A stretch of DNA of 40,445 nucleotides from Deltaproteobacteria bacterium (GTDB taxonomy: Bacteria; Desulfobacterota; Binatia; UBA12015), in contig VGTG01000040.1 in NCBI GenBank assembly GCA_016874795.1, forward strand, positions 1 through 40,445, in the 5' to 3' direction. The translations under genes and the position numbers were made by a program. Shown here in pieces: positions 628-36,916 of this stretch. A model generated the notes under the pieces. It was not told where the DNA came from. It ran no database searches and was given only the letters and a program-made list of their open reading frames with translations. Position 1 is the stretch's first letter, and every line of letters begins with the position of its first letter.

Positions 628-1302
628 TCATACGGCGCGCGCGCGAGCGCCGACTCCCTGCAGGAGCTGTGGAGCGAGTGTGAGAATCATGCGCCCAACG
701 TCGTCGAAGTCGAGCCGTTCGCGCAGCCCGAGGAGCTCGGTCGTGTCGATCAACGCGCCCAGCGCGAAGAAGAGCCAGGTGTGGGCGCGCAGGTCGAGGT
801 CCTGCGGCACGAGGCCCTGCCGGCGCGCGTCCTCGTAGAGGCCCTGCACGAAGTCGAACGTCTCGAGGAACTGCGCGCGCAAGCGGTCGCGGACTTCGGG
901 GTCCTCGGCGTCGAGCTGAGCGCGAGCGCGCAGCAAGAGCGGAGCCGGGTCGCGCTGGAGCCGGTCGAAGTACCACTGCCCGAGCCCGAGCAGGGCGTCG
1001 AGCGGCGTCGCGCTGTCACGCACCATCTGGCGCCAGGGGCCCACGATCTCTGCGGCGCAGCGATCGATCGCGGTCAGGTAGAGCTCGCGCTTGCTCGCGA
1101 AGTAGCGGTAGACCGTCGGCTCGCTCACCCCCGAGCGGGCGGCGATCTCCGCCGTTCCCGTCTCGCGATAGCCCTTGCGGGCGAAGAGCTCGAGGGCGGC
1201 GTGCAGGATCTCCTCGCGGCGCTCGAGCGCCGGTCGCCGCTTGGCGCGAGGGCGGGGCCGAGGTGCGGAGCGGGGCCGGGGTGCGGAGCGGGGCCGGGGC
1301 AT
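628..1302 (-). CDS. TetR/AcrR family transcriptional regulator (TetR-1)
   Basis: 224-residue one-component repressor. The N-terminal helix-turn-helix lies at about residues 34-78 (HAALELFARKGYRETGTAEI, then GVSEPTVYRYFASKRELY); the rest is the variable ligand-binding domain. The first 24 residues are an unusual Arg/Pro-rich tail (PRPRSAPRPRSAPRPRPR) encoded by an 18-bp tandem repeat. I chose ATG at 1302; the reading frame is open further upstream but runs across the operator and into the neighbouring gene. It is divergent from the carotenoid oxygenase at 1403, with a perfect palindrome between them, so it most likely represses that operon and itself until it binds a pathway ligand (inference). 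Confidence 0.9.
   Translation of the reverse strand: MPRPRSAPRPRSAPRPRPRAKRRPALERREEILHAALELFARKGYRETGTAEIAARSGVSEPTVYRYFASKRELYLTAIDRCAAEIVGPWRQMVRDSATPLDALLGLGQWYFDRLQRDPAPLLLRARAQLDAEDPEVRDRLRAQFLETFDFVQGLYEDARRQGLVPQDLDLRAHTWLFFALGALIDTTELLGLRERLDFDDVGRMILTLAPQLLQGVGARARAV
1262..1297. repeat. Two 18-bp tandem repeats inside TetR-1
   Basis: Two exact copies of GGTGCGGAGCGGGGCCGG, preceded by a partial copy at about 1252-1261. They encode the SAPRPR repeats of the TetR-1 N-terminal tail. The unit is a multiple of three, so copy-number change would keep the frame. Confidence 0.85.
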
Positions 1303-1339: not shown

Positions 1340-1350
1340 AGGAATAGTGA
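1322..1350 (+). promoter_or_regulatory. Candidate promoter of the rightward catabolic operon
   Basis: TTGATC (1322-1327) and TAGTGA (1345-1350) are 17 bases apart. The -35 is fair and the -10 poor, but the -10 position falls in the left arm of the palindrome at 1345-1360, as expected for a repressed promoter. The first gene starts at 1403 after a purine-rich GGAGAGCAAA ribosome-binding site. Confidence 0.3.
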
Positions 1351-1360
1351 GGCCTCACTA
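1345..1360. promoter_or_regulatory. Perfect 16-bp palindrome, likely TetR-1 operator
   Basis: TAGTGAGGCCTCACTA is a perfect inverted repeat with no spacer, lying in the 100-base gap between divergent TetR-1 (ATG 1302) and the carotenoid oxygenase (ATG 1403). Its length, symmetry and position are typical of TetR operators in catabolic and fatty-acid regulons. That TetR-1 binds it is inference. Confidence 0.75.
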
Positions 1361-1402: not shown

Positions 1403-2809
1403 ATGGGCAAGGTCGTGAATCGGGAGGGGAACGAGTACCTGAGGGGCAACTTCAGCCCGATCGACGACGAGATCGAAGTCCGCGAGCTCGCCGTCACCGG
1501 AGCGATCCCCTCTGCGCTGACGGGTCTCTACCTGCGCAACGGACCGAACCCGATGTTCGAGCCGCTCGGGAGCTACCACTGGTTCGACGGCGACGGGATG
1601 CTGCACGGGATCCGCCTCGAAGGCGGCAAGGCCAGCTACCGGAATCGCTGGATCCAGAGCCGCGGCCTCGCAGCGGAGAAGCGTGCCGGACGCGCCGTCT
1701 ACGGCGGAATGAAGACCATGAGCCTGACCGACCCGGCGCTCGTCGGCGAGTCGGGGCCGCTCAAGAACACGGCGAACACGAACGTCATCCGCCACGCCGG
1801 GCGGATTCTCTGCCTGATGGAAGGTGCCGTACCCACGGAGGTGAAGCCGGACCTCGGCACGGTCGGCGAGCACGACTTCGCCGGCCGGCTGCAGACGCCC
1901 TTCACCGCTCATCCGAAGCTCGACCCGGAGACCGGCGAGATGCTCGCCTTCGGCTACATCCCGACCCTGAAGTACCTCCGCGTGAGCCCGACGGGCGAGC
2001 TCTTGCAGAGCGAGGACATCGGCGTCGGAAAGCCGACGATGATGCACGACTTCACCTGCACGACCGGCCACGCGATCTTCATGGACGCCCCCGCGCTCCT
2101 CGATTTCGAGTCGTTCTTTGCCGGCGGCCCGATGGTCAAATGGGATCCGAGCTACGGCACCCGGATCGGCGTCATGCCGCGCACGGGCCGGGGCAGCGAC
2201 ATCCGCTGGTTCGAGATCGACGTCGGCTACGTCGTCCACTTCATGAACGCGTGGGAGGAAGGCCGCAAGATCATGGTCGACGGCTTCCGCTTCAGGGAGA
2301 TGGACTTCGGCACGAGTGACGGCAAGATCCCCGACCCGGACGGCTTCCTGACGCGCTTCACGATCGACCTCGACGCCGGCTCCGTCAAGCTAGAACGGAT
2401 CGGCGAGCTTCCCGGCGAGTTCCCCCGCGTCCGTCCCGAAGTCGAGGGCAGGAAGCACCGCTACAGCGTCGCGGCGACCTTCGTGAAGGGCCCGCCGAGC
2501 GGGCCGCGATTCGACTCGGTCACCCTGTACGACTCCACTTCGGGCAAGCAGAGCACGCACGCGTTCCGCGACGGCGAGATCACCGGCGAGCCGGTCTTCG
2601 CGCCGGATCCGTCCGGGACCGCCGAGAACGACGGCTGGATCCTCACCATGGTCAGCGACGCCGAGGGCGCGCATACCGACCTCGTCATCCTCGACGGGCA
2701 CGACCTTTCCGAGACGGCTCGTGTGCACATGCCGCGGCGAGTGCCATTCGGGTTCCACGGCAACTGGCTGCCGGACGGCTCGGAAGCGTTGACCACGCCG
2801 CGTCGCTGA
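1403..2809 (+). CDS. Carotenoid oxygenase (CCD/RPE65) family dioxygenase, copy 1
   Basis: 468-residue non-heme iron oxygenase of the CCD family, a seven-bladed propeller that splits alkene C=C bonds of carotenoids, apocarotenoids or stilbenes to aldehydes. The four iron-binding histidines are visible: H170 (FTAHPK), H215 (MMHDF), H279 (VVHFMNAW) and H452 (GFHGNW). The family signature LRNGPNPMFEPLGSYHWFDG follows near residue 45. I start at ATG 1403 because GGAGAGCAAA lies just before it; upstream in-frame codons overlap the operator. It is the first gene of the long plus-strand run and divergent from TetR-1. A second member opens the opposing operon at 39587. The family is certain; the substrate is not determinable here. 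Confidence 0.93.
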   Translation: MGKVVNREGNEYLRGNFSPIDDEIEVRELAVTGAIPSALTGLYLRNGPNPMFEPLGSYHWFDGDGMLHGIRLEGGKASYRNRWIQSRGLAAEKRAGRAVYGGMKTMSLTDPALVGESGPLKNTANTNVIRHAGRILCLMEGAVPTEVKPDLGTVGEHDFAGRLQTPFTAHPKLDPETGEMLAFGYIPTLKYLRVSPTGELLQSEDIGVGKPTMMHDFTCTTGHAIFMDAPALLDFESFFAGGPMVKWDPSYGTRIGVMPRTGRGSDIRWFEIDVGYVVHFMNAWEEGRKIMVDGFRFREMDFGTSDGKIPDPDGFLTRFTIDLDAGSVKLERIGELPGEFPRVRPEVEGRKHRYSVAATFVKGPPSGPRFDSVTLYDSTSGKQSTHAFRDGEITGEPVFAPDPSGTAENDGWILTMVSDAEGAHTDLVILDGHDLSETARVHMPRRVPFGFHGNWLPDGSEALTTPRR

Positions 2810-2850
2810 AGCGATCGCGCGATGACGCGGCCTTCCGTCCGAAAGTCGCG

Positions 2851-2880
2851 TTGCTCGTGATCTCGAAGCGCGGATACGAT
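2851..2880 (+). promoter_or_regulatory. Possible internal promoter before the TonB receptor
   Basis: The 139-base gap after the carotenoid oxygenase is the largest in the operon. It holds TTGCTC (2851-2856) and TACGAT (2875-2880), 18 bases apart. The match is weak; the receptor could have separate expression, or the gap may only be a leader. Confidence 0.2.
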
Positions 2881-2948
2881 CGTACTACTTCGCAGCCGTG
2901 TCGCCGGCCGCCGGCACACCGATCGGTCTCGCTCGAGGAAGCTTGCAC

Positions 2949-5453
2949 ATGAGAAATCGCCCCGCCGCTCTTCACAAACTCTTGCTCCTCTGCTTCGCCC
3001 TCGCGGTACCCGTGCGCCTCGCCCAGGCCCAGCCCGAGGCAGAAGACCCGAAGGCGCTCGATCCGGAGGCGCTGAAGCCCGAGGCGTTGGATCCAAAGTC
3101 CCTGACCGAGGAGCCGCGTGGCTGGGATCAGCCGCCGCCCGGCGACGTGATCGTGCCCCCGAGCCAGCGTCCTCGGGACGGCGGCGTCGAAGCGATCACC
3201 GTGACGGCGCAGAAGCGTGTCGAGAACATCCAGGACGTGCCGATCTCGATCACCGCGCTGACGGCCGAGTTCATCGAGGACTCGGGTCTCACCAACGTCC
3301 TGAACATGGCGCAGTACCTGCCGAACGTGCAGATCAACGCCGTCACCGACTCGCGCTCGACCGCGATCCGGATCCGCGGCATCGGCAGCGACGGCAACAA
3401 CGCCGGCATCGATCCGAGCGTCGGCGTCTTCATCGACGGGATCTTCCAGGGCCGGACGGGAGCTGCCTCGATCGTCGACCTCTCCGACATCGAGCGCATC
3501 GAAGTCCTGCGCGGCCCGCAGGGCACGCTCTACGGCAAGAACACGGCGGCGGGAGCGATCAACGTCGTGAGCAAGCGGCCGGTCCTGAACGAGTGGGAAG
3601 GGCTGATCGAAGGCATCGCCGCCAACTACTCGAACGAGGAGGTGCGCGGCTCGATCAACGTTCCCCTGATCGACGACCGCGTCGCGGCACGCGTTTCCGG
3701 CTACTGGGTGAACCGCGATCCCTTCGACGAGCTCTGGAGCACCGGCGCCGGCGTCAACGACGCCAATCGAAGCGGCGCCCGCCTCCGCACCCTCTTCGAC
3801 ATCAGCGACGATCTCGAGCTCCTCGTCTGGGCAGACTACGGGAACGAGAACAGCACCTGCTGCGTCGCCGACATCATCGCGTACGACGGCGTTCCCAACC
3901 TCGACGTCGCTTTCAAGCCCGGAGGTTTTGCCGTTCCGCCTGGCGCGACGGTCGGATTCCTCGACACTCTGGGCCCGGTGCCGCCGGTCGACCCGTTCGA
4001 CCGCATGGTCGACGCGAACGCGCCGAGCTCCAACGACGTCACGGTCTGGGGAGTCGCGGGCGAGCTGAACTACGACATCGGCGACTACGTCGTCACCTGG
4101 CTCAACGCGTACCGCACCTTCGATTCGTTCAGCGTTCTCGACGGCGACTTCTCCAGCTTCGACGCGGTCTTCCAGCAGACGGACGAGCAATTCCAGCAGG
4201 CGTCATCCGAGCTTCGCCTGACCTCGCCCTACGGTGAGGACCTCGAGTACGTCGTCGGCCTCTACTTCTACTGGCAGAAGGACGACACCGTCGGGATGAC
4301 GGGAATCGGGCCCGACTGGCTCGACGTGTCTTCGCTCGGGCCGATCCTCGAAGCGGAGCTCGGCGAGGACGCGCCACGCGTCGTGCAGAACACCGACACC
4401 AACACGCACCAGACCTTTGCCTACGCGGCCTTCGGGCAGGGGACGTACCACTTCTCGGAGGAGTGGTCTCTGACGATCGGGTTGCGCGGCACCTACGAGC
4501 AGAAGGACCGCGTCGGCAGCCAGATCGCCGGCTTCACCGCGGTCGACGCAGGGCCCTTCGGTCCGGATCGGTTCGCGGACGAGTCGTTCTCGGTCTTCAA
4601 CCTCTCGCCGATGGGCTCGCTGCAGTACTTCCCGACCGACGACTCGATGATCTTCGCCCGGGTGGCGCGAGGCTTCAAATCGGGCGGGTTCAACCAGCTG
4701 CGGACGGTCGAGGGCCTGAACACGCAGTTCGACGACGAGGTGGCGACCGACTTCGAGATCGGCTTCCGGAGCACCTGGTGGGACGGCATGGTGACCGTCA
4801 ACGCGACCGGCTTCTACACCCTCTACGACGACTTCCAGGCGCAGGCGTTCGACGGCAACTCGTTCGCCGTGACCAACGCCGGCAGCTTGACGAGCTACGG
4901 GGTCGAGACCGACGCGCTCTTCGTACCGCACCCGATGATCGTCTTCGGCCTCGGGACCGGCTACAACGTCGCGAAGTACGACGACTTCCCGAACGCGCCG
5001 TGCACCGCCCAGCAGGCGTACCTCGAGCGCCTCGCGGCCGGAAACCTGATCGCGCCGACCGGGTGCAAGCAGGACCTCTCCGGGCAGCCGCTCGACAACG
5101 CCCCGCAGTGGTCGATCTCGAGCTTCGCGCAGCTCACCTACCCGATCGGCGAGCTGCCGCTCGTCGACTGGCCGACGCTCGGATTCCTGCGGGCCGAGTA
5201 CAACTATCGCGATGTCCTCTTCCTGCAGCAGGACCTCGACGAGCAGCAGATCGAGCCGCCGCTGAACCTCGTCAACCTGCGCGCGGGGCTGCGCACCGAG
5301 GACGAGCACTGGGAGCTCACCCTCTGGGTGATGAACCTCACCGACGCCGACTACCAGGTCGTGTCGTTCGACGTTCCGATCGTCAGCGGATACGCGAGCA
5401 TCAACGGACCGCCGCGAACCTTCGGCGCGACGTTGCGCTACAACTTCTTCTGA
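2949..5453 (+). CDS. TonB-dependent outer-membrane receptor
   Basis: 834-residue outer-membrane transporter that uses TonB energy to import large or poorly soluble substrates. Residues 1-27 form a Sec signal peptide (basic start, LLLLCFALAV core, AQAQ cleavage region). A linker with four five-residue repeats (DPKAL-type, residues 33-52) precedes the TonB box AITVTAQKR. The plug domain follows (NIQDVPISITAL; IERIEVLRGPQGTLYGKNTA; GAINVVSKRP), then a barrel ending in the expected C-terminal aromatic (LRYNFF). The plug is of the type common in sphingomonad-like catabolic receptors rather than classic siderophore receptors. ATG 2949 was chosen because it begins the signal peptide. Between an oxygenase and a P450, it probably imports the pathway's hydrophobic substrate (inference). 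Confidence 0.92.
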   Translation: MRNRPAALHKLLLLCFALAVPVRLAQAQPEAEDPKALDPEALKPEALDPKSLTEEPRGWDQPPPGDVIVPPSQRPRDGGVEAITVTAQKRVENIQDVPISITALTAEFIEDSGLTNVLNMAQYLPNVQINAVTDSRSTAIRIRGIGSDGNNAGIDPSVGVFIDGIFQGRTGAASIVDLSDIERIEVLRGPQGTLYGKNTAAGAINVVSKRPVLNEWEGLIEGIAANYSNEEVRGSINVPLIDDRVAARVSGYWVNRDPFDELWSTGAGVNDANRSGARLRTLFDISDDLELLVWADYGNENSTCCVADIIAYDGVPNLDVAFKPGGFAVPPGATVGFLDTLGPVPPVDPFDRMVDANAPSSNDVTVWGVAGELNYDIGDYVVTWLNAYRTFDSFSVLDGDFSSFDAVFQQTDEQFQQASSELRLTSPYGEDLEYVVGLYFYWQKDDTVGMTGIGPDWLDVSSLGPILEAELGEDAPRVVQNTDTNTHQTFAYAAFGQGTYHFSEEWSLTIGLRGTYEQKDRVGSQIAGFTAVDAGPFGPDRFADESFSVFNLSPMGSLQYFPTDDSMIFARVARGFKSGGFNQLRTVEGLNTQFDDEVATDFEIGFRSTWWDGMVTVNATGFYTLYDDFQAQAFDGNSFAVTNAGSLTSYGVETDALFVPHPMIVFGLGTGYNVAKYDDFPNAPCTAQQAYLERLAAGNLIAPTGCKQDLSGQPLDNAPQWSISSFAQLTYPIGELPLVDWPTLGFLRAEYNYRDVLFLQQDLDEQQIEPPLNLVNLRAGLRTEDEHWELTLWVMNLTDADYQVVSFDVPIVSGYASINGPPRTFGATLRYNFF
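3045..3104. repeat. Four 15-bp imperfect tandem repeats in the TonB receptor linker
   Basis: Four consecutive 15-base units encode DPKAL, DPEAL, KPEAL and DPKSL, between the signal peptide and the TonB box. The copies have diverged at third positions, so this is an old repeat rather than a fresh slippage product. Confidence 0.8.
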
Positions 5454-5458
5454 TTCTG

Positions 5459-6691
5459 ATGCGAGAGCTGCCGCCGTTCGAGTACGCTCCGCTCTCTCCC
5501 GAGCACCTGCGCGATCCCTATCCGCTCTTCCAGAGGGCGCATCGCGAGGCGCCGGTCTTCTTCAGTCCCGCGTTCCAGCTCTGGATCGTCACGCGCTACG
5601 ACGACATCTGGACCGTGCTGAAGGACCCCGAGCGCTTCAGCTCCGCCGCTTCGACGACCGTCGGCACCGAGGTGCCCCAGGAGGTGCGGGCGGTGCTTTC
5701 GGAAGGCTACGGCGAGGTCGACACGCTCGTCACCAACGATCCGCCCGCGCACACCCGGTTTCGCTCGCTGGTGAACAAGGCGTTCACTCCCCGCCGCGTC
5801 GCCGAGCGCGAAGAGCACATCCGTGAGATCGCCGGCCGCCTGGTCGACGGCTTCGCCGGCGACGGGCAGGCGGATCTCGTCGCGCGCTTCGCGGTGCCCC
5901 TGCCGCTCACCGTGATCGCCGAGATCCTCGGCGTGCCGACCTCCGATCTCGCGACGTTCAAGCGCTGGAGCGACGACATCACGGCACGCTTGATGCCGCT
6001 TCCGCTCGAGCGGCAGGTCGAATGCGCGAGGAGCCTCGTCGAGTTCCAGCACTACGTCAGCGGCATGCTCGACGAGCGCGAGAGGGATCCGCGCGACGAC
6101 ATGCTGACCGATCTCCTGAACGCGCGGATCGCGGGAGTCGAGCCGCTCACGCGGGCGGAGATGCTGAGCATGCTGCAGCAGATCCTCGTCGCGGGAAACG
6201 AGACCACGACGAGCTTGATCGGCAACATGGTCGCTCTCTATGCGTACCGGCCCGACGAATGGCGCGCGATCGGCGCGGATCCGAGCCTCGCGCCGGCCGT
6301 CGTGGAAGAGGTGCTGCGCCTCGAATCGCCGGTGCAGGGCCTCTTCCGGACGACGACCGAAGAAGTCGAGCTCGGCGGCGCGACGCTGCCGAAAGGGGCG
6401 CACCTCCAGCTCCTCTACGGAGCGGCGAACCGCGACGAAGCCCACTTCCCGGAGTCCGACGAGCTGCGACCAGGCCGGCCGAACGGTGCGGCTCACCTCG
6501 CCTTCGGGGGCGGCGTGCACTTCTGCCTCGGCGCGGCGCTCGCACGCCTCGAAGGGAGGATCGCCCTCGAAACGCTGACGCGCCGCCTTCCCGAGATCCG
6601 TCTCGATCCGATTCGGCCGAGCGTGCGGCGCCCGCACTTCTTCTTGCGGGGCTTCGAGCAGCTCTGGATCACTTGGAAAGTCGTTCCTTGA
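5459..6691 (+). CDS. Cytochrome P450
   Basis: 410-residue soluble bacterial P450. Visible motifs are the I-helix AGNETTT (245-251) for oxygen activation, the ExxR pair E284-R287, and the heme loop FGGGVHFCLGAALAR with the thiolate ligand C356. There is no membrane anchor. Length and motifs fit the CYP families that hydroxylate terpenoids, steroids or fatty acids in catabolic operons. ATG 5459 lies 5 bases after the receptor stop; the frame is open much further back, but only inside the receptor gene. No ferredoxin or ferredoxin reductase gene is in the window, so electrons must come from elsewhere. It overlaps the next gene by TTGA. Confidence 0.94.
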   Translation: MRELPPFEYAPLSPEHLRDPYPLFQRAHREAPVFFSPAFQLWIVTRYDDIWTVLKDPERFSSAASTTVGTEVPQEVRAVLSEGYGEVDTLVTNDPPAHTRFRSLVNKAFTPRRVAEREEHIREIAGRLVDGFAGDGQADLVARFAVPLPLTVIAEILGVPTSDLATFKRWSDDITARLMPLPLERQVECARSLVEFQHYVSGMLDERERDPRDDMLTDLLNARIAGVEPLTRAEMLSMLQQILVAGNETTTSLIGNMVALYAYRPDEWRAIGADPSLAPAVVEEVLRLESPVQGLFRTTTEEVELGGATLPKGAHLQLLYGAANRDEAHFPESDELRPGRPNGAAHLAFGGGVHFCLGAALARLEGRIALETLTRRLPEIRLDPIRPSVRRPHFFLRGFEQLWITWKVVP

Positions 6692-9084
6692 GCGGCTCGC
6701 TCGCGCCGAAGCGCGCGCTTCAGGGCATTCGCGTGGTCGAATGCGGCGAAGGCGTGTCGGCGCCGTTTTGCGCTCGCGTCCTCGCCGATCTCGGCGCCGA
6801 GGTCTGGAAGGTGGAGCCGCCGGACGGCGACGTGTCGCGCACCTGGGGACCGTTTCCGGGCGGTGCACGTGATCCCGAGAGCAGCGCCGACTTCGCCCAT
6901 CTGAACGCGGGAAAGAAGAGCGTACGTCTCACGGGCGAAGCGCGCGAGGATGGCGCGACGGTCGCGCGCCTGGTCGAAACGGCCGACGTCGTCGTGACGA
7001 ACCTCCCGGCGGGGGCGCGTGAGCGAGTCGGCCTCGACGTCCCGACGATCGAGCGTGCGCACCCGGGGCTCGTGGTGCTCCAGCTGAGCGCCTACGGCGC
7101 CTCGGGGCCCTGGGCCGAATCGCCGGGCCAGGGCGTCAACGTTTGCGCCGTCGCCGCGATCAGCGTCATCCTCGGCGAGCCCGGGAGGACGCCGCTCTCG
7201 TTTCCGCCGGATCTGCCGGGCCTGCAAGCGGGGCTGCACGGTGCGGCGGCCGTCTTGACCGCGCTTCTCGGACGCAGGACGAGCCGTTCGGGACGCCGCA
7301 TCGACGTCGCGGAAACGGACGTGCTCGCCTACTACGCCGGCGGGATGTCGCTCTTCATCCTCGGGTCCGGCGGCGCTTGGATGCGGCGCGGCTTCGAGCG
7401 CCACGGCGGGATCTATCCGTCGGGGTTCTACCCGTGCGGCGACGGCTTCGTCTTCATCGCGACGCAGACGCGCGCGCAGTGGGCGGGCTTCCTGCGGCTC
7501 ATGGGCGATCCCGAGTGGGCGCACGAGGATCCGGTCCTCCAGGACGGCGTCGCCATCGGCTGGAAGCGCGCGGAGGAAGTCGATCTCCACTTCATTCCGT
7601 GGCTGCTCGATCACACGCGTGCCGAGCTGACGGAGATGGCGCGCGCCGCGGACCTCGTGCTCGGACCGATCAACGGCCCGGACGACGTCCTGGCGAGCCG
7701 CCATCTCGAGGAGCGCGGCTTCTGGGCGCACGCGCGCCTCGGCGGCTCGCGCGTTCGCCTTCCGGGGATGGGCTATCGGCTCTCTGCGACGCCCGCGGCC
7801 CTCGGCGAAGCGCCCCGCCTCGGCGAGCACGCTGCCGTCGACCTGCCGGAGCCTCGCCGGCGCGAAGCGACCACGAACGGCGCCGGGCAGGGATCGCGGC
7901 GGCCGCTCGCCGGCTACCGCGCGATCGAGTTCGGCTTCAATTGGGCAGGGCCGATGGTCGGACAGATCCTCGCCGACATGGGGATGGAGGTGATCAAGGT
8001 CGAGACCGCCGGGCGTCTCGATTTCATGCGGCACTGGAAGCACGCGCGCCGCTTCTTCCACAACGCGAACCGCGGCAAGCTGTCCGTTTCGATCGACGTC
8101 AAGAAGAAGGATGGGCGCGAGCTCGTCCGCGCTCTCGTGGCCAAGTCCGACCTCGTCTTCGACAACTTCGCGGCCGGCGTCATGGAGCGGCTCGGGCTCG
8201 GTTACGAGGACCTGCGCGCGGTGAAGCCGGACATCGTCGCGCTTTCGATGGCGATGGCGGGACAGACGGGTCCGCTTCGTCACCTGCGCGGGTTCGCGAC
8301 GATCGCGACGGGGTTCGCGGGCCTCGAGGCGCAGGTCGGCTATCCCGACACCGGCCCGACGGGGCTGCCGGTCATCGGGCTCGGCGACGCGAACGCGGCG
8401 ATCCAGGGCGTGGTCGCCGCCCTCGCAGCACTCTGGCACCGCGAAGAGACGGGCGAGGGCCAGCGTATCGACCTCTCCCAGGTCGAAGCGGCGACGGCGC
8501 TCGTCGCGCACTCCCTCGCGCTCCGGCAGCTCGATCCCGACGCCTCGTTCGTTCCCCGCGGCAACGAGCACGAGAGCATGGCGCCGCACGGGATCTATCC
8601 CGCCGCCGGCGAGGACCGCTGGATCGCCCTCGCGATCGGCAGCGACGCCGAGTGGGCCGCGCTCGCCTGCGCTCTCGGGGAGCCGGCGTGGGCGACCCGG
8701 GCTTCGCTCGCCACGGCTCCCGGGAGGTGTGCGGAGAGGCAGGCCATCGACGCGGAGCTCTCGCGATGGACCGCGCGGCACGACCGCGACGAGCTCGTCG
8801 ACCGGCTTCGCCGCGGCGGCCTCGCAGCCTCGCCCGTGCTCGCGATCGACGAGCTCCAGACGTGGCCGCAATTCGTCGCGCGCGGTCTCGTGCGAAGCAC
8901 GCCGAGCTTCGACGGTGGTAAGGAGCTGGTCTATCGCACCCCGTGGCAGCTCGCAGGCGAAGCGGAGCCGCCGAGCGGCTCGTCGCCTCGGCTGGGGGAG
9001 CACAACGACTACGTCCTCGGAAAGCTCCTGGGGCTCGAGCCCGAGCGCTTCGCCGAGCTCGTCGGTAGCGAGGTGATCCATTGA
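6688..9084 (+). CDS. Fused tandem class III CoA-transferase (two CaiB/BaiF domains)
   Basis: 798 residues, about twice the usual 400, made of two consecutive CaiB/BaiF domains. Domain 1 (about 1-400) starts GIRVVECGEGVSAPFCARVL; domain 2 (about 405-798) starts GYRAIEFGFNWAGPMVGQIL. Class III enzymes move CoA between acids through an aspartyl-CoA intermediate. At that position domain 1 has RIDVAETD (Asp) and domain 2 has RIDLSQVEA (Glu), so the two halves may not be equivalent. I use TTG 6688, overlapping the P450 stop as TTGA; the next in-frame start, GTG 6733, would remove the first strand. The following ligase starts with the same TTGA overlap, supporting this choice. It probably activates a pathway acid (inference). 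Confidence 0.9.
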   Translation: MSGSLAPKRALQGIRVVECGEGVSAPFCARVLADLGAEVWKVEPPDGDVSRTWGPFPGGARDPESSADFAHLNAGKKSVRLTGEAREDGATVARLVETADVVVTNLPAGARERVGLDVPTIERAHPGLVVLQLSAYGASGPWAESPGQGVNVCAVAAISVILGEPGRTPLSFPPDLPGLQAGLHGAAAVLTALLGRRTSRSGRRIDVAETDVLAYYAGGMSLFILGSGGAWMRRGFERHGGIYPSGFYPCGDGFVFIATQTRAQWAGFLRLMGDPEWAHEDPVLQDGVAIGWKRAEEVDLHFIPWLLDHTRAELTEMARAADLVLGPINGPDDVLASRHLEERGFWAHARLGGSRVRLPGMGYRLSATPAALGEAPRLGEHAAVDLPEPRRREATTNGAGQGSRRPLAGYRAIEFGFNWAGPMVGQILADMGMEVIKVETAGRLDFMRHWKHARRFFHNANRGKLSVSIDVKKKDGRELVRALVAKSDLVFDNFAAGVMERLGLGYEDLRAVKPDIVALSMAMAGQTGPLRHLRGFATIATGFAGLEAQVGYPDTGPTGLPVIGLGDANAAIQGVVAALAALWHREETGEGQRIDLSQVEAATALVAHSLALRQLDPDASFVPRGNEHESMAPHGIYPAAGEDRWIALAIGSDAEWAALACALGEPAWATRASLATAPGRCAERQAIDAELSRWTARHDRDELVDRLRRGGLAASPVLAIDELQTWPQFVARGLVRSTPSFDGGKELVYRTPWQLAGEAEPPSGSSPRLGEHNDYVLGKLLGLEPERFAELVGSEVIH

Positions 9085-10754
9085 CTGCGCCGGAGCTGCC
9101 GCAGTTCTCGCCGGAGTACCGCGAGCGCTTCGTCTCGCGAGGCCTCTGGCTCGATCGAACCCTGCACGACTACTTCGCCGAGGCCGTCGCCGCGGCGCCG
9201 TCGCAGGTCGCGATCGTCGAGGGCGACCGGCGCGTCACGTTCGCCGAATGGGACGACCTCGCGCGCCGCGCTGCAGCGGGCCTCGTGCGGCTCGGCCTCC
9301 GCAAGGGCGACGTCGTCACGGTGCAGCTGCCGAACTGGCTCGAGATGTGCGTCGTGCAGATCGCGCTGTCGCGCATCGGCGCGATCATCCAGCCGATGCA
9401 CACCGTCTACCGCGAGCGCGAGATGGCTTCGATGCTCGAGTTCTGCAACTCGCGCGCCGTGATCGTCCCCGAGGAGCACGCGGGCTTCGCGCACGCGGCG
9501 GCTGCCTGCGCTCTGCGCGGGCAGCTCCCCGACCTCGCGCACGTGATCGTCGCGCGCGGCGAGTGCGCGGGGGCGGTGCCCTGGAGCGAGATCGCCGCAA
9601 GCGACGCCGGACTCGAAGCGTACGAGCGCGCCCATCCGGCGCACGCGGACGACGTCTTCTACCTGAACTTCACCTCCGGGACGGAGGGGGCGCCGAAGGG
9701 GTTCCTGCACACGCACAACACCCTTCTCTCGGTGCTGAAGCGCTTCGCCGAAATGCAGGCGCAAGCCGACCCGTCTTCCGCCAGCGACGTGATCCTCGCC
9801 AACAGCCCGATGACGCATTCCTTCGGCCACCTGACGACCTACCAGGTGCTCCTCCGGAAGGTGCGCATGGTCCTCGCCGCGCGCTTCTCGCCCGCGGAGA
9901 CGCTGCGGCTCGTCGCCCGCGAGCGGGTCACCGCGATCTCGGGGACGCCGGCACACCTGATCAGCTTGCTGCAGCACCCGAGCTTCCCGGAGACCGACAC
10001 GACGTCGATCAAGAGCGTCGGCGTGGGCGGCGCGGCGTGCCCGCCGCAGCTCATGGCGGACATCGAGAGGCACTTCGGGGTGCGCGTCGGCAACATGTAC
10101 GGAATGGGCGAGAACATCGTCCACACGCGGACCCTCCCGAGCGACGCGCCCGACGTGGTGCGCGAAACGGTGGGCTTGCCGGTGCCGGGTGCCGAGCTCG
10201 AGATCTTCGCCGACGATCACGCGACCGTGCTGCCCCGCGGCTCGGTCGGCGAGATCGCGTTCCGCGGCCCGACGCTCTTCCTCGCCTACTACCGAAGCCC
10301 TTCGCTGACGCGCGCCACCCGCAACGACGACGGCTGGTTCTTCACGGGCGACCTGGGCTTCGTCGACGACCGCGGCTACCTGCACATCGCCGGCCGCAAG
10401 AAGGAGCAGATCAATCGCGGCGGGACGAAGATCCACCCGAAGGAGATCGAGGACTTGCTTCATTCCCATCCGAGTGTCGCACGCGCCGCCGTCGTCGGGA
10501 TGCCGGACGATCGACTCGGTGAGCGCGTGTGCGCCTACGTCGAGCTCGTGCCGGGCGCGGGACTGTCGCTCGAGGAGGCGCGCACCTTTCTCGAGTCGAA
10601 GCGCGTCATGAAGTACAAGCTGCCCGAACGACTGGAAGTCGCCCGCGAGCTCCCGCAGACGCCGACCGGCAAGATCCAGAAGGGCCCGCTCCTCGAGGAC
10701 ATCGCGAGGAAGCTCGAGCGCGAAGCCGCGTCACTCGGCGGAGGCCGAGAGTGA
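9081..10754 (+). CDS. AMP-dependent acyl-CoA ligase (class I adenylate-forming), copy 1
   Basis: 557-residue cytosolic ligase that adenylates a carboxylic acid and forms its CoA thioester. The ATP loop FTSGTEGAPKGFLHTHN is near residue 200, the hinge GWFFTGDLGFVDDRGYLHIA near 420, and the catalytic lysine is K531 in PTGKIQKG. It resembles cyclohexanecarboxylate- and fatty-acid-CoA ligases. The start is TTG 9081 in a TTGA overlap with the previous gene; the N-terminal sequence then has normal family length. Having both a CoA-transferase and a ligase suggests the pathway activates more than one acid (inference). Confidence 0.92.
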   Translation: MTAPELPQFSPEYRERFVSRGLWLDRTLHDYFAEAVAAAPSQVAIVEGDRRVTFAEWDDLARRAAAGLVRLGLRKGDVVTVQLPNWLEMCVVQIALSRIGAIIQPMHTVYREREMASMLEFCNSRAVIVPEEHAGFAHAAAACALRGQLPDLAHVIVARGECAGAVPWSEIAASDAGLEAYERAHPAHADDVFYLNFTSGTEGAPKGFLHTHNTLLSVLKRFAEMQAQADPSSASDVILANSPMTHSFGHLTTYQVLLRKVRMVLAARFSPAETLRLVARERVTAISGTPAHLISLLQHPSFPETDTTSIKSVGVGGAACPPQLMADIERHFGVRVGNMYGMGENIVHTRTLPSDAPDVVRETVGLPVPGAELEIFADDHATVLPRGSVGEIAFRGPTLFLAYYRSPSLTRATRNDDGWFFTGDLGFVDDRGYLHIAGRKKEQINRGGTKIHPKEIEDLLHSHPSVARAAVVGMPDDRLGERVCAYVELVPGAGLSLEEARTFLESKRVMKYKLPERLEVARELPQTPTGKIQKGPLLEDIARKLEREAASLGGGRE

Positions 10755-11899
10755 GCTTCGGCAAGATCACCGAGGAGGGCCTCGCGAAGCTGCGCGGTCG
10801 GATCGGCGTCGAGCGGAAGGGCTCGAACATGCACCGGAGCGGCCCTCTCCATCTCACCGCGGAGACGATCCGGCGGTTCGCGCTCGGCTCGGGGGACGAC
10901 AATCCGCTCTACGTCGACGGCGACTACGCCCGCGCGAGCCGCCACGGCGCACGCATCGCACCGCCGAGCATCACGGGCTTTCTCGAGCGCTCGAACGGCG
11001 CCTCCGACGGCTTCCCCGGATGCCACACGATCTGGCGCGAGGCCGCGTACGAGTGGACCCGCGCGATGCGCGCGGGCGAGACCCTCGATTCGAGCTCCTA
11101 CCTCCGCCGCGTCGAGATCCTGCCGAGCAAGTTCGGCGGCGGCCGGGCCGCGGTCCAGGACTACGAGACGGTGATCGTCGACGCCGAAGCGAATCCGATC
11201 GGGCGCTACGACACCTCGTGGCACCGCTTCGAGCGCTCGAGCGCGAAGCAGGCGAGCACACTCAAGCACCGCGAGCTCCCGATGTACTCGCCGGAGGACA
11301 TCGAGCGCATCAAGGCGGACTACAAAAAGGAGAAGCGGCGCGGGGCCGAGACGCTGTACTGGGAAGACGTCGAGCCCGGGGAGGAGATCCCCTTCGTCGT
11401 GAAGGGTCCGACGACGCAGATCAGCAAGTTCGCCTTCGAGAGCTGGCTCGGCGCGGGCGGCTGGTTCGTCGGCCACAAGCTCGCCTTCGAGTTGTTCGAC
11501 CGGCACCCCGGCCTTCCCTTCGTGAACGAGCAGGGCATCCCCGAAGCCCCGGTCGCCATCCACTGGTCGAACGAGCGCTCCCAGAAGATCCTCGGGCTGC
11601 CCGGTGCGTACGAGTCGGGCTACGAGCGCACGAGCTGGATCGTGAACATGCTGATGAACTGGATGGGCGATGCCGGCCACCTCTACCGGCTGACGCAGCG
11701 CTATCCGACGTTCAACCTCCTCGGCGATACGACATGGTGTCACGGCACGGTCCAGTCGAAGGTCGTTCTCGACGAAGCGATCGACGGCAAGCGGCACGCC
11801 GTTCGCTGCGACGTCTGGACGGTCAACCAGCGCGGCGACACGACGACGACCGGCGAAGCCGTCGTACTCCTGCCCAGCCGCCGGCAGATTCCGGCGTGA
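10751..11899 (+). CDS. Double-hotdog MaoC/FAS1-type acyl-CoA dehydratase
   Basis: 382 residues with two hotdog segments, the size of fused (R)-specific enoyl-CoA hydratases. The N-terminal half (about 1-160) is the FAS1_DH/MaoC_N type: LTAETIRRFALGSGDDNPLY followed by DYARASRHGARIAPPS. The C-terminal half begins at LYWEDVEPGEEIPF and is a divergent partner domain. Expected role: hydration of an enoyl-CoA or the reverse. The start GTG 10751 overlaps the ligase stop (GTGA). The classic MaoC D-x4-H catalytic pair is not obvious in the second half, so the active site needs modelling. Confidence 0.8.
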   Translation: MSFGKITEEGLAKLRGRIGVERKGSNMHRSGPLHLTAETIRRFALGSGDDNPLYVDGDYARASRHGARIAPPSITGFLERSNGASDGFPGCHTIWREAAYEWTRAMRAGETLDSSSYLRRVEILPSKFGGGRAAVQDYETVIVDAEANPIGRYDTSWHRFERSSAKQASTLKHRELPMYSPEDIERIKADYKKEKRRGAETLYWEDVEPGEEIPFVVKGPTTQISKFAFESWLGAGGWFVGHKLAFELFDRHPGLPFVNEQGIPEAPVAIHWSNERSQKILGLPGAYESGYERTSWIVNMLMNWMGDAGHLYRLTQRYPTFNLLGDTTWCHGTVQSKVVLDEAIDGKRHAVRCDVWTVNQRGDTTTTGEAVVLLPSRRQIPA

Positions 11900-11909: not shown

Positions 11910-12689
11910 GTGAAGCACGAGGTCTTGGAGGAGCTCTTCTCGCTGCGCGGTCGCGTGGCTCTCGTCACCGGCGGCGGATCGGGGATCGGTGCGGGATGTG
12001 CGCGGCGGCTCGCCGAGCTCGGCGCCGATGTCGCGGTCGCCGATCTGCGCTCGAGTGAAGCCGAACGGGTCGCCGCGATCGTCGCCGGGGCGGGTGCGAG
12101 CCCGCTCGCCTTGCAAGCCGACGTCTCGGTCGAAGGCGACGTCGCCGCGATGGTCGAGCGTACGGTCGCGGAGCTCGGCGCGATCGACATCCTGGTCAAC
12201 AACGCCGGCATCTACCCGTCGCATCCGATCGCGGAGATGCCCGTCGACGAGTGGGACCGCGTATTCGCCGTGAACGTCCGCGGCGCGATGCTCTGCACGC
12301 GCGAGGCGGCGCGCGCGATGCGACTTGCGGGGCGGGGCGGCACGGTGGTGAACGTATCGTCGATCGAGTCGTTTCATCCCTCGTTCGTCGGCTTGCCCCA
12401 CTACGGAGCGTCGAAGGGCGCGCTCAACATGCTGACGAAGTGTGCGGCACTCGAGTACGCGCCCGACCGCATCACGGTGAACGCCGTCTGCCCGGGCGGG
12501 GTCGAGACGGAAGGGACCCGGCAGGCCTTCGGCGACGGCTTGAAGGAGCAGCTCGAGCAGCGGATCCCGCTCGGCCGCGTCGGCCGGCCGGAGGAGATCG
12601 GCGCGGTCGTCGCATTCCTCGCCGGACCGGCCGGCGCTTACATCACCGGCGCGACTTTGGTCGTCGACGGCGGCTACCTCGTGAGCTGA
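11910..12689 (+). CDS. Short-chain dehydrogenase/reductase (SDR-1)
   Basis: 259-residue classical SDR. The cofactor loop TGGGSGIG is at 20-27, NNAG at 97-100, and the catalytic set is S150/S151, Y165 and K169 (YGASK). An acidic residue after the second strand (VAVADLR) favours NAD(H). It ends with the usual TGATLVVDGGY tail. GTG 11910 is preceded by a strong GGAGG at the right distance. Likely an alcohol/ketone or 3-hydroxyacyl-CoA oxidoreductase of the pathway. It is similar to SDR-3 at 16401. Confidence 0.9.
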   Translation: MKHEVLEELFSLRGRVALVTGGGSGIGAGCARRLAELGADVAVADLRSSEAERVAAIVAGAGASPLALQADVSVEGDVAAMVERTVAELGAIDILVNNAGIYPSHPIAEMPVDEWDRVFAVNVRGAMLCTREAARAMRLAGRGGTVVNVSSIESFHPSFVGLPHYGASKGALNMLTKCAALEYAPDRITVNAVCPGGVETEGTRQAFGDGLKEQLEQRIPLGRVGRPEEIGAVVAFLAGPAGAYITGATLVVDGGYLVS

Positions 12690-12707: not shown

Positions 12708-13256
12708 ATGGCGGAAGAGAAGGACTCGTCGTACTGGATCGTGGAGCAGCAGCTCGCGCAGATCGACCCCGCGCTCGTCGACAAGTGGGGCGATCCGAAC
12801 AAGCATCCGGAGACGCAGCTCTCGAAGGAGGAGCAGCGCCAGATCCTCGAGGCGGGCCGCGAGGTCTTCATCTCGCACCTCACCAAGGAAGGCTTTCCGA
12901 TGGTGACGGTGCACGTCTACTGCCTCATCGAGGGCGAGCTCTGGAGCACGAGCGTCAAGGGGCGCGTCAAGGCGAGCGCCTTCAAGCGCGACCCGCGGAC
13001 GGCTCTCTGCATCTCGTCGAGCGGGCTCACCCTGCCATTCGGGGGCGGCATGACGATCAAGGCGCGCGCGGAGGTGATCGAGGACCGCGCCGTCGTGGAG
13101 CGCGTCTGCGCCGAGCACGGCCGGCGCTACTACACGAGCCCGAAGGCGCAGGAGCTCTTCGCGGGGACGCTCTTCACACCGAACCGGGTCGCCCTCAAGT
13201 TCGCCATCGACTCCATCGTGAGCTGGAAGAACATCGGGATGAAGTCGGAGGCCTGA
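12708..13256 (+). CDS. Pyridoxamine-5'-phosphate-oxidase-like (PPOX split-barrel) flavoprotein 1
   Basis: 182-residue small protein with the PPOX split beta-barrel pattern: a conserved strand FISHLTKEGFPMVTVHVY, then GELWSTSVKGRVKASAFKRD, then LCISSSG. Such proteins bind FMN, F420 or heme and act as small reductases or oxidases; the ligand cannot be told here. ATG 12708 follows a GAAGGAG site. A second PPOX protein (18201) is in the same operon, not a close copy. Placed directly before the flavin reductase at 13261. Confidence 0.78.
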   Translation: MAEEKDSSYWIVEQQLAQIDPALVDKWGDPNKHPETQLSKEEQRQILEAGREVFISHLTKEGFPMVTVHVYCLIEGELWSTSVKGRVKASAFKRDPRTALCISSSGLTLPFGGGMTIKARAEVIEDRAVVERVCAEHGRRYYTSPKAQELFAGTLFTPNRVALKFAIDSIVSWKNIGMKSEA

Positions 13257-13260: not shown

Positions 13261-15204
13261 GTGAGCGCGGCCGAGCACCTCTTTCGTCCTCTCCAGGTCG
13301 GCCCGATGCGGGTGCCGAACCGGATCGTCGAGACGACGTACTCGATCAACTCGGGTCGCGCCGACGGGCTGCCGGATGCGCCCTTCATCGAGCATCACCT
13401 GCGTCGAGCCCGCGGCGGCGCGGGCTGGATCGGCAACGAGACGTGGCTTCTCCCGACGCCGCTGCCGCCCGGTCGGGCCGACGAGATCCTCCCCGGCACG
13501 GGGGCGGTGCGGTTCGCGATCTACGACCATCCGGAGTTCGTCCCCCGCGTGCGCACGTTCACCGGCGCCGTGCACGCCGCCGGGGCCGTCGCGGTGATGC
13601 AGCTCACCCACCTGCAGTCGCTGATGTGTCCCTCGCCGGTGACGATGGCGCTCAACGCGGACACGATCCCGCACGCGCTCGAGGAAGAGGAGATCGAGCG
13701 CATCCTCCAGACCTACGCGATCGCCGCCGAGCGCTTTCGCGACGCCGGCGCCGACGCAATCGAGATCCACTGCGCGCACGAGACGCTGCCGCAGTGGTTC
13801 CTTTCCCCGGCGACGAACCATCGCAACGATCGGTGGGGGGGCTCGGAGGAGAACCGCATCCGCTTCGTGGTCGAGGCGGTGCGCTTCGCTCGCTCGCGCG
13901 TGTCGCGCGACGTCGCGATCGGGCTTCGGATCTGCGCCGACGAGCATCGCGAGGACGGCTACGACCTCGCCGCCATGCGACGCATGGCGGCGGCGATCTG
14001 TGCCGCAGCCGACATCGACTATCTGAGCGTCGACGTCGGATCGACCTGGGGCCGGCCGAGCTACGTTCCGCCGGTGCACGTCCCGGTCGCCGGCTTCGCT
14101 ACGTACGCGGCGGCGATCCGCGAGGTGGTTCCCGTCCCCGTCGTGTACGCCGGGCGGGTGAACGACCCGGAAGTCGCGGCCTCACTCGTCGCGAGCGGGC
14201 GTGTCGATCTCGTCGGCATGACGCGCGCCCTCCTCGCCGATCCCGAGATGCCGCGGAAGCTCCGCGAAGGGCGCGCGCACGAGATCCGGAAGTGCATCGC
14301 CTGCAACACCTGCATCGGCAAGGTCGTGCACGCCGAGGTGAAGACGCCGCTCTGCGCCGTCAACCCGGTCGTCGGCCACGAGCTCGATTGGAAGGAGGAG
14401 CCGGCCGCGGCGCGCAAGCGGGTCCTCGTCGCCGGGGGCGGGCCCGCGGGTCTGGAGGCGGCGCGTGTCGCCGCGGAGCGCGGGCACGAGGTGATCCTCT
14501 GCGAAGCCTCCGGGGAGCTCGGCGGGATGATGCGTCTCGCTGCGGCGACGCCGGGCCGAAGCGCGTTTCTCGATTTTCCCGTGTTCCAGGAGGGCGCGCT
14601 CGCTCGCCTCGGCGTCGAGGTCCGGAAGGAGAAGCGGCTGACTGCCGCGGAGGTCGCGACGCTCCGGCCCGACGCGGTGATCGTCGCGACCGGCGGCGTT
14701 CCGCGACGGAGTCCTCTCACGGGCGCGAACGTCGTCGACTTCGCACGGGTGCTGCGCGGCGAGGCCGAGGTGGGCGACCACGTCGTCATCCTCTCCGAGG
14801 ACGACCACATGATCACGCCCGGCGTCGCCGACTACCTCGCGGCGCAGGGGAAGCGCGTCGAGATCGCACACAAGTGGCTGATGCCGGCTTCGCAGGTCGA
14901 TCGCTACACGCAGGGCGAGGTCTTCCACCGGCTCTACTCTGGCGGAGTCGTGATCCATCCATCGACGCGCGTGCGTGCCTTCGCGGAGCGCCGCGTCCGC
15001 ACCTACAACGCGCACACCGGAAGGGAAGGCGCGATCGACGACGTCGACACGGTCGTCGTCTGCGTCGGTGCCGAAGCGGACGACGCGCTCTACCACGAGC
15101 TCGAGGGCACGGTCCCCGAGCTCTACCGGATCGGCTCCGCATTCGCGCCGCGCTCGATCGCCGACGCGACACAGCACGGCGCGAGCGTCGCTCGGCTGCT
15201 CTAG
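13261..15204 (+). CDS. Old-Yellow-Enzyme family FMN/4Fe-4S/FAD oxidoreductase (2,4-dienoyl-CoA reductase/TMADH type)
   Basis: 647 residues with the full three-part build of FadH, BaiCD/BaiH and trimethylamine dehydrogenase. Residues 1-340 are an FMN TIM barrel (HCAHETLPQWFLSPATNHRN; ENRIRFV). The 4Fe-4S site is C345-x2-C348-x2-C351-x13-C365, closer in spacing to TMADH than to E. coli FadH. An NAD(P)/FAD pair of Rossmann domains begins at VLVAGGGPAGLEAARVAAERG. Expected role: reduction of a conjugated dienoyl- or enone-type intermediate, as after oxidative cleavage of a polyene. The start GTG 13261 is five bases after the PPOX stop. The exact substrate is unknown. Confidence 0.88.
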   Translation: MSAAEHLFRPLQVGPMRVPNRIVETTYSINSGRADGLPDAPFIEHHLRRARGGAGWIGNETWLLPTPLPPGRADEILPGTGAVRFAIYDHPEFVPRVRTFTGAVHAAGAVAVMQLTHLQSLMCPSPVTMALNADTIPHALEEEEIERILQTYAIAAERFRDAGADAIEIHCAHETLPQWFLSPATNHRNDRWGGSEENRIRFVVEAVRFARSRVSRDVAIGLRICADEHREDGYDLAAMRRMAAAICAAADIDYLSVDVGSTWGRPSYVPPVHVPVAGFATYAAAIREVVPVPVVYAGRVNDPEVAASLVASGRVDLVGMTRALLADPEMPRKLREGRAHEIRKCIACNTCIGKVVHAEVKTPLCAVNPVVGHELDWKEEPAAARKRVLVAGGGPAGLEAARVAAERGHEVILCEASGELGGMMRLAAATPGRSAFLDFPVFQEGALARLGVEVRKEKRLTAAEVATLRPDAVIVATGGVPRRSPLTGANVVDFARVLRGEAEVGDHVVILSEDDHMITPGVADYLAAQGKRVEIAHKWLMPASQVDRYTQGEVFHRLYSGGVVIHPSTRVRAFAERRVRTYNAHTGREGAIDDVDTVVVCVGAEADDALYHELEGTVPELYRIGSAFAPRSIADATQHGASVARLL

Positions 15205-15222: not shown

Positions 15223-16404
15223 ATGGACTTCCGCGACTCGAGCGAGGACGCCGCCTTCCGGGCCGAGCTGCGCGCCTGGCTTGCGCGAAGCCTCGCCGAG
15301 GCGGGAGGGCTCCCCTCGGACCCGTCGGCGGCGGCCCTCCATTCCCGCGCCTGGCAGCGCCGTCTCGCCGAGGCGGGCTACGTCGGCCTCGCCTGGCCGA
15401 GGGAATACGGCGGCCGGGCGGCACCTCCGACGCAGCAGGTGATCTTCGCCGAGGAGTGCGCGCGTGCGGGGGCGCCGCCGCTGATCAACGGAATCGCTCT
15501 CGGCATCCTCGCACCGGCGCTGATCCAGCACGGCAACGAAGCGCAGAAGCGCCGCTTCCTGCCGCGCATCCTCTTCGCCGAAGACCTCTGGTGCCAGGGC
15601 TTCTCGGAGCCGGGTGCGGGCTCGGACCTGTCCTCGCTGCAGACGCGCGCCGTCGTCGACGGGGACTTCCTCATCGTGAACGGACAGAAGGTGTGGACGA
15701 GCCTGGCCCCCATCGCGGACTGGTGCTTCCTCCTCGTGCGCACCGGCGAAGAGCGCACGGGGCCGCGCGGCATCACCTACGTCTTGATGCAGATGTCGAG
15801 CGCCGGCGTGCGCGTTCGACCGATCCGTCAGATCACCGGCAAGAGCCACTTCAGCGAGATCTTCCTCGAGGACGTGCGCATTCCGCTCGCGAACGTCGTC
15901 GGCGAGCTGCACGGCGGCTGGAGCGTGGCGCGCGCGACGCTCGCCGCGGAGCGGAGCGGGCTCTCCGGAGTGGTCGAGCTCGAGCGCTCGTTGACGGCCT
16001 TGCGCGGTCTCGCGGCGGCGCGCGGCGCCCTCGGAGACCCGGTCGTGCGCCAGCGTCTCGCCGGTCTTTGGGTCGAGAAGGAAGCGCTCAAATGCACCGG
16101 CTACCGCGTCCTGACGAAGCAGCTCCGCGGCGAGGCGCTTGGACCGGAGGCCGCGATCGGCAAGCTCGCCGCTTCGGAGTTCCGCCGCGCTGTGATGGAC
16201 ACGGCGCTCGAGCTCCAGGGCCCCTACGCGATGCTCGGCCGCGGCAATCCGCGTGCGCTCGAGCGCGGGCGCTGGCAGGGACTCTACCTCGACGCGCGCG
16301 CCTACACGATCGGCGGCGGCACGTCCGAGATCATGCGCAACATCATCGCGGAGCGCGCGCTGGGTCTTCCCCGCAGCGTTCCACTAACGGGAGGATTTCG
16401 ATGA
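15223..16404 (+). CDS. Acyl-CoA dehydrogenase
   Basis: 393-residue FAD acyl-CoA dehydrogenase. Seen in order: N-terminal helical domain (YVGLAWPREYGG), FAD/substrate segment GFSEPGAGSDLSSLQTRA, beta-domain VNGQKVWTS, and C-terminal helix TSEIMRNIIAERALGLPR. At the position of the medium-chain catalytic Glu (YEGT) there is Gly365 (GGGT), as in many mycobacterial FadE and steroid-type dehydrogenases, so the base must sit elsewhere in this chain or in a partner. No second subunit is adjacent. ATG 15223 follows GGGGAGGAGG, a strong ribosome-binding site. It overlaps the next gene by ATGA. Confidence 0.92.
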   Translation: MDFRDSSEDAAFRAELRAWLARSLAEAGGLPSDPSAAALHSRAWQRRLAEAGYVGLAWPREYGGRAAPPTQQVIFAEECARAGAPPLINGIALGILAPALIQHGNEAQKRRFLPRILFAEDLWCQGFSEPGAGSDLSSLQTRAVVDGDFLIVNGQKVWTSLAPIADWCFLLVRTGEERTGPRGITYVLMQMSSAGVRVRPIRQITGKSHFSEIFLEDVRIPLANVVGELHGGWSVARATLAAERSGLSGVVELERSLTALRGLAAARGALGDPVVRQRLAGLWVEKEALKCTGYRVLTKQLRGEALGPEAAIGKLAASEFRRAVMDTALELQGPYAMLGRGNPRALERGRWQGLYLDARAYTIGGGTSEIMRNIIAERALGLPRSVPLTGGFR

Positions 16405-18659: not shown

Positions 18660-18676
18660 GCGAGAGGACCGGGGTC

Positions 18677-24871: not shown

Positions 24872-24873
24872 AC

Positions 24874-34903: not shown

Positions 34904-34915
34904 GGCGGCTCGCCT

Positions 34916-36912: not shown

Positions 36913-36916
36913 TCCT

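Follow-up and report, generated by a model that had tools for sequence, protein, structure and literature searches.

The question raised by contig VGTG01000040.1 of a Deltaproteobacteria bacterium of the class Binatia is what joins three genes that follow one another near its left end and code for an alkene-cleaving dioxygenase, an outer-membrane receptor and a cytochrome P450. The whole contig of 40,445 nucleotides (C40 of genome G000, 6.27 Mb) was analyzed and is called the window below. A first-pass annotation had taken the trio as the front end of a pathway that imports a large hydrophobic compound intact and oxidises it afterwards. The three genes are real and occupy exactly 1403-6691, as judged by Pfam profile matches: the carotenoid-cleavage dioxygenase (CCD) gene CCD1 of the RPE65 type (1403..2809, +), the TonB-dependent receptor gene (2949..5453, +) and the P450 gene (5459..6691, +). 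They are the first genes of the plus strand only, since a TetR-family regulator divergent from CCD1 (628..1302, -; TetR_N 1.2e-18) and an MDR-type oxidoreductase truncated at the contig end (3..626, -; ADH_N_2 1.7e-23) are encoded upstream on the minus strand. We lean, with modest confidence, towards a reading in which the locus imports and degrades a terpenoid-type (isoprenoid) compound as one unit of a regulon of CCDs and receptor under TetR control. Gene content, operon conservation, co-occurrence of receptor and operon and a common palindrome speak for this reading at the sequence level; from them we infer binding by TetR, the substrate class, the order of reactions and the import of the uncleaved compound.

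Receptor, operon and common palindrome

The P450 gene is the first of a 16-gene CoA-type catabolic operon, and its ATG (5459) follows the receptor stop codon (5453) after a gap of five bases; about 140 bases separate the CCD1 stop from the receptor ATG. CCD1 and the receptor gene carry the codon signature of a GC-rich host, with a GC3 of about 0.9. The distribution of receptor and operon was followed in 148 genomes of the class, with the operon protein DUF7064b at E <= 1e-120 as operon marker and E <= 1e-60 as receptor threshold. DUF7064b was matched strongly in 8 of these genomes and weakly (1e-25 to 1e-32) in three more, and the receptor was found in nine, namely the eight operon genomes and G003. 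Its presence in 8/8 operon genomes compared to 1/140 others argues that receptor and P450 operon belong together as one functional unit. Across 395 genomes sampled from the phylum, DUF7064b was recovered at E <= 1e-60 from the own genome only, and a search for plasmid-borne relatives of DUF7064b found none.

Receptor orthologues (55-70%) and P450 orthologues (62-77%) are conserved, the latter heading the operon in seven relatives. Seven other genomes retain the gene order of the operon, namely G001, G002 (on two contigs), G010, G483, G484, G031 and G051 (split), and G491 has a part of the operon. The receptor gene lies directly 3' of SDR3, the final operon gene, in G001, G002 and G010 and is unlinked to the operon in G483, G484, G031 and G051; in G484, G031 and G051 a TetR-MDR pair resembling the one in the window lies divergent to it, and this TetR has an MDR homologue at its side in G001, G002, G031, G051 and G484. 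A PAS/sigma-54 activator is encoded immediately 5' of the P450 in G001, G002 and G051 (by Pfam) and in G484 (by sequence likeness), a place taken in the window by the receptor gene; the activator genes were located at L149:8513-10045, L209:3784-5319 and L208:2349-3830. The idea of dioxygenase, receptor and P450 as a conserved trio did not survive this comparison: all seven relatives are without CCD1 at that place, and the receptor gene stands at the opposite end of the operon (three genomes) or elsewhere (four). By the same 7/7 count, CCD1 was rejected as an ancestral part of the operon.

Support for a link between the dioxygenase and the receptor comes from a perfect 16-bp palindrome, TAGTGAGGCCTCACTA, a proposed TetR operator of the form TAGTGA-N4-TCACTA at 1345..1360, in the gap between the TetR gene and CCD1 and 42 bp 5' of the CCD1 ATG. 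It is the sole match in the window at up to two mismatches, where 0.11 were expected. Exact copies occur in 20 of 249 loci and represent 12 distinct sites, a count biased by itself because these loci are mostly CCD and receptor neighbourhoods. Eight sites precede seven CCD genes, i.e. CCD1, single genes in G031 (C77), G051 (C66, the CCD at the 3' edge of the operon), G484 (C80), G483 (C56) and G001 (C72), and one in G010 (C8) that has two exact sites upstream together with a divergent TetR; the other four precede receptor genes in G483 (C200), G484 (C140), G031 (C91) and G051 (C92). The half-sites are fixed and the N4 spacers vary (GGCC, GTAG, GTGA, GTCG, ACAC, TGAC and others).

Among 46 distinct CCD upstream regions, 34 came from nine related genomes and 12 from other genomes. 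The palindrome was present with at most one mismatch in 13 of the 34 (six exact and six one-mismatch rows, plus CCD1 counted from the window scan) and with two mismatches in three more, compared to 0/12 in the other genomes, where none had fewer than four. Control stretches chosen by contig number, 60 from G000, G031 and G484 (1,193,558 bases), contained no site at zero or one mismatch and three at two, and 20 further stretches of G000 (379,566 bases, including CCD and receptor contigs) contained one site with one mismatch and one with two, both before CCDs. The recognition-helix region VSEPTxYRYF is common to the window TetR, the receptor-divergent TetRs of G484, G051 and G031 and the CCD-divergent TetR of G010. 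Adjacency and this near-identical region suggest that the TetR binds TAGTGA-N4-TCACTA, and the palindrome offers a direct handle for in vitro work on this binding and for reading the regulon of related genomes, which could reveal more receptors and CCDs. Contig C134 of the own genome (L322 5468-14670) has a further CCD gene with a one-mismatch site; an SDR gene and one for a luciferase-like monooxygenase follow it, and the opposite strand encodes a P450 and another TonB receptor (26% identical).

CCD genes are also found at the edges of the operon, 3' of SDR3 in G051 (C66) and G483 (C675) and 5' of the P450 in G051 (C256) and G484 (C1). Together with CCD1 they represent four clades in 4/8 genomes. 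With 63 listed CCDs placed uniformly, 0.25 to 0.28 of the 8 genomes would be expected to have a CCD within a 27-30 kb span around the operon (simulated P 4.5e-5 to 7.5e-5; neither the relatedness of the genomes nor the tendency of catabolic genes to cluster entered the calculation). Under the same simplification, a CCD lies within 5 kb of 3/8 operon P450s compared to 2/143 other P450s among the 150 of 259 matches listed, the eighth operon P450 (G483), which is outside those listed, being counted as having no CCD nearby.

Proposed route and the sterol alternative

The P450 (Pfam p450 8.7e-26) gives full-length matches to solved P450s, and its nearest relative is CYP109Q5 (6GMF) with 279.6 bits, the next reaching 244.7. 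P450s are assigned to a family by more than 40% identity to a member; with 43.9% identity to CYP109Q5 over 376 residues the window protein falls within CYP109 by this measure, short of a formal naming. The substrates of CYP109Q5 include ionones, which it hydroxylates, as well as other terpenes and steroids (PMC6389848).

Further into the operon, an APH-family kinase (18404..19654, +; APH 2.8e-35; best solved relatives 3dxp and ACAD11) is encoded between the genes of two DUF7064 proteins, DUF7064a (17191..18180, +; 59% identity to b) and DUF7064b (21751..22758, +). The AlphaFold2 model of DUF7064b (18 sequences, pLDDT 85.1, pTM 0.86) is predicted to share the fold of 25-phosphosteroid lyase, AttH and kievitone hydratase; 25-phosphosteroid lyase is matched over the full length and ranks first (Foldseek E 1.5e-12; Z 26.3, root-mean-square deviation 2.9, 283 aligned), followed by AttH NE1406 (Z 25.1) and kievitone hydratase (23.2). 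Since the lyase-like fold is predicted and the kinase gene lies between the DUF7064 genes, a hydroxyl may be phosphorylated and the phosphate then eliminated, as by 25-HSK and 25-phosphosteroid lyase (PMC8449060, PMC11061730); a CoA ester is a possible substrate of the kinase because the protein is close to the kinase part of ACAD11.

In the mechanism that we propose, the receptor would carry the terpenoid compound over the outer membrane, CCD1 would cleave an alkene bond and the CYP109-like P450 would hydroxylate, both in the cytosol. The hydroxylated product or its acid would enter the operon by CoA activation and CoA transfer, for which an AMP-forming acyl-CoA ligase (9081..10754, +; AMP-binding 1.3e-79) and a two-domain CaiB/BaiF family III CoA-transferase (6691..9084, +; two CoA_transf_3 stretches) are candidates. 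The kinase would then phosphorylate the hydroxyl and the DUF7064 pair would eliminate phosphate, or (de)hydrate, before dienoyl-CoA reduction by the OYE/dienoyl-CoA-reductase-like flavoenzyme (13261..15204, +; Oxidored_FMN; TIGR03997 482 bits, below cut-off) and steps of the beta-oxidation type. TetR would act via the palindrome before CCD1, and in relatives before scattered CCD genes and the receptor gene; in the own genome CCD1 lies between operator and receptor gene, and the TetR-controlled unit would be fused directly to the P450 operon.

Several observations weigh against this proposal. G003 (87% complete) carries the receptor twice but lacks the operon. Eight of 12 examined receptor copies, including all six of the own family (f1) beyond the window, are without a palindrome within 400 bp; the scans took in selected loci and stretches, a minor part of each genome, and in the clade that also occurs 5' of the P450, three f11 CCDs have no closer variant than one with three mismatches. 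In CCDs of the f11 genomes (L203:2744, L211:12213, L235:1447) the match start is preceded, at about 15 bp, by a shorter palindrome-like sequence of the TTAGTGnCCACTA type, which may be the TAGTGA-N4-TCACTA site with altered spacing. In G001 and G002 the surroundings of the operon showed no CCD, so that an adjacent one does not appear to be required, and the neglect of kinship and catabolic clustering bears on both counts of CCD proximity. The best structural match of DUF7064b is nearly tied with AttH (25.1) and has a sequence identity of 15%. Finally, no named reaction is assigned to the OYE, acyl-CoA dehydrogenase and CaiB genes because their NCBIfam scores lie under the cut-offs.

The strongest rival is steroid or hopanoid catabolism, in which the receptor would import a sterol-like compound, P450, kinase and phospholyase would act on its isoprenoid side chain, and CCD1 would be a hitchhiker acting elsewhere. 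A TonB receptor, a P450 and CoA-type genes are likewise combined in the edc estrogen cluster of Novosphingobium tardaugens, whose P450 is EdcA and whose TonB receptor EdcT is thought to import estrogens (PMC7793797). The predicted resemblance of DUF7064b to 25-phosphosteroid lyase and the two genomes with no CCD near the operon point the same way. However, a hitchhiking CCD would not explain why receptor and CCD genes have the same palindrome in four other genomes, and neither an edc-type extradiol dioxygenase gene nor an IOR gene was identified among the annotated window genes, a negative for steroid ring degradation that covers the window and not the whole genome. Steroid or hopanoid catabolism is judged rather unlikely.

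Receptor, CCD1 and the likely substrate

The receptor frame is open from 2898 to 5453 (+), with a likely ATG at 2949, and has both the plug (Pfam Plug 6.5e-22) and the barrel (4.1e-37) of TonB-dependent receptors above Pfam cut-offs. The 'catabolic-type' plug of the first-pass annotation does not correspond to a defined feature. A siderophore or haem receptor present here by chance, with CCD and P450 working on an endogenous or passively entering compound, would agree with its best solved relative, the pesticin receptor FyuA, which has a siderophore role, and with its best NCBIfam match, TIGR01783 (TonB siderophore receptor), although the score of 137.5 bits is below the cut-off of 223.5. Yet a Sphingopyxis receptor from a CoA-catabolic region likewise has FyuA as its best solved match, so that FyuA marks a broad group, and a chance neighbour is hard to square with the 8/8 compared to 1/140 co-occurrence, the linkage at two different positions and the palindrome held in common with CCDs, which together make this reading improbable. 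The vitamin B12 model TIGR01779 (BtuB) is matched with 37.8 bits, below its cut-off of 599.7. Grouping with siderophore or B12 receptors had been named beforehand as the observation that would speak against a catabolic receptor; in a tree of rows picked by likeness to it and with FyuA left out, the window receptor stands apart from the siderophore, B12 (BtuB) and PQQ receptors of E. coli. Its grouping with sphingomonad receptors in that tree is partly built in, because of this choice of rows. Nine plasmid receptors were also viewed, and their neighbours were catabolic in some cases and less clear or not catabolic in others, one record being unannotated.

By eye and by hydropathy, a signal-peptide-like N terminus is present in the receptor only and not in CCD1 or the P450 (12-residue maxima of 2.89, 1.46 and 0.75, respectively), and for this reason CCD1 and the P450 most likely cleave and oxidise in the cytosol, after import. 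The uptake-then-oxidation scheme of the first-pass annotation thus gains from the missing signal peptides, the co-occurrence of receptor and operon and the palindrome common to receptor and CCD genes, while the trio is not supported as a conserved unit.

CCD1 is covered by the Pfam RPE65 profile over its full length (1-469 of 469; E 8.6e-127, 424.5 bits; ATG at 1403) and has the four Fe-ligand histidines H170, H215, H279 and H452, which are kept in all 123 aligned CCD sequences and place it in the RPE65/CCD superfamily. Its top score was obtained with a carotenoid 9,10-dioxygenase (241 bits). The best of three NCBIfam matches, NF052295 (8'-apo-carotenoid 13,14-cleaving dioxygenase), reached 347.1 bits, under its cut-off of 675, and NF053778 (lignostilbene dioxygenase) 270.2 bits, under 800. 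In the lignostilbene dioxygenase LSD4, Tyr-101 and Lys-134 bind the 4-hydroxyl of phenolic stilbenes (PMC8191317). The least probable alternative, the catabolism of lignin-type stilbenes or phenylpropanoids with CCD1 as a lignostilbene dioxygenase that hands an aromatic aldehyde to the operon, draws on scores of 218-230 bits with such enzymes and on a TonB receptor that, by the title of a cited reference, serves a lignin-derived compound, but the carotenoid enzyme scores higher and the Tyr/Lys pair, aligned with Met-103/Met-139 in CCD1 and Leu/Tyr in CCD2, a second CCD of the window, was found in 0/123 aligned relatives.

At E <= 1e-135, CCD1 matches among the 395 phylum genomes were confined to the own genome and G028. 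The G028 homologue, at 72% the nearest, was set aside as a functional guide, as its neighbours are hydantoinase/oxoprolinase genes and beta-helix proteins and the operon is absent. At the thresholds used, none of 80 CCD1-like loci from named genomes showed a receptor next to the CCD; three actinobacterial loci (L010, L012, L015) have a CoA ligase 3' of it. RPE65-family genes are numerous, with nine in the own genome (CCD1 and eight more) and 5 to 14 matches per genome in eight other f1/f11 genomes searched. An own carotenoid is less likely as substrate because no CrtI-family desaturase above cut-off was found in the own genome; of the eight operon genomes only G010 has one.

To our knowledge, bacterial uptake and mineralisation of carotenoid breakdown products or large terpenoids are poorly known. 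As a tentative and more specific proposal, the locus may serve the scavenging of carotenoid-derived terpenoids, with one TetR governing the receptor and CCDs of several clades genome-wide, and receptor, CCD and a CoA operon with kinase and phospholyase joined at this site. If true, CCD chemistry would for the first time have an outer-membrane receptor linked to it: the literature searched revealed no such receptor, and the available part of a lignin review makes no receptor-CCD link. Catabolic clusters that combine a TonB receptor with a P450 have precedents; for the CCD link and the palindrome that literature offered none. A pair of kinase and phospholyase-fold protein near an O2-dependent P450 would, moreover, carry a known step of oxygen-independent sterol degradation into a new setting.

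Other window genes and known systems

The operon further encodes, all on the plus strand, a MaoC/FAS1-dehydratase-like protein (10775..11899; FAS1_DH_region), SDR1 (11910..12689; adh_short_C2), a PNPOx-family protein (12708..13256; PNPOx_N), a PimC-large-like acyl-CoA dehydrogenase (15223..16404), SDR2 (16386..17180), a zinc-type alcohol dehydrogenase (20028..21206), a VOC/glyoxalase_4 protein (21213..21737; match to Glyoxalase_4), an Amidohydrolase_2 protein (22760..23680) and SDR3 (23703..24431), the final gene of the conserved operon. A SnoaL-like protein (24862..25281, +) follows, as it does at the 3' end of the operon in G483 and G031. CCD2 (38142-39587) heads a minus-strand set (32911-39587) with an SDR, SnoaL_4, an acyl-CoA ligase, a small unassigned gene, a thiolase-like protein and a ChsH2-type OB-fold protein, a set that resembles the retro-aldolase modules of sterol side-chain degradation. 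Between both CCD clusters, 27321-30170 (-) codes for a large protein with carboxypeptidase-regulatory, Vgb-lyase-like and DUF4215 matches.

Among known systems, the edc cluster with EdcA and EdcT appears to be the closest arrangement. Both loci combine a P450 and a TonB receptor in one catabolic cluster, for a hydrophobic polycyclic substrate in the case of edc, and edcT stands at the end of its operon, as does the receptor gene in G001, G002 and G010 (PMC7793797). In contrast to the window, a CCD is not mentioned for edc in the available sections of that paper, and the extradiol dioxygenase EdcB and the oxidoreductase EdcC were not identified among the annotated window genes, as judged by annotation and not by comparison of sequences. 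CCD1 shares the CCD superfamily, the four histidine ligands and a role in a catabolic route with LSD4 and LsdA (PDB 6ojr) and differs in that both it and CCD2 are without the Tyr-101/Lys-134 pair of LSD4 (PMC8191317). In Sterolibacterium denitrificans, 25-HSK and 25-phosphosteroid lyase (PDB 9fzn) likewise pair a kinase gene with a matching lyase fold, here placed in one operon; identity is about 15%, and the sterol route is O2-independent, unlike the O2-dependent P450 of the window (PMC8449060, PMC11061730). CYP109Q5, so close to the P450 in sequence, differs from it in setting, the window enzyme being embedded in a catabolic operon (PMC6389848).

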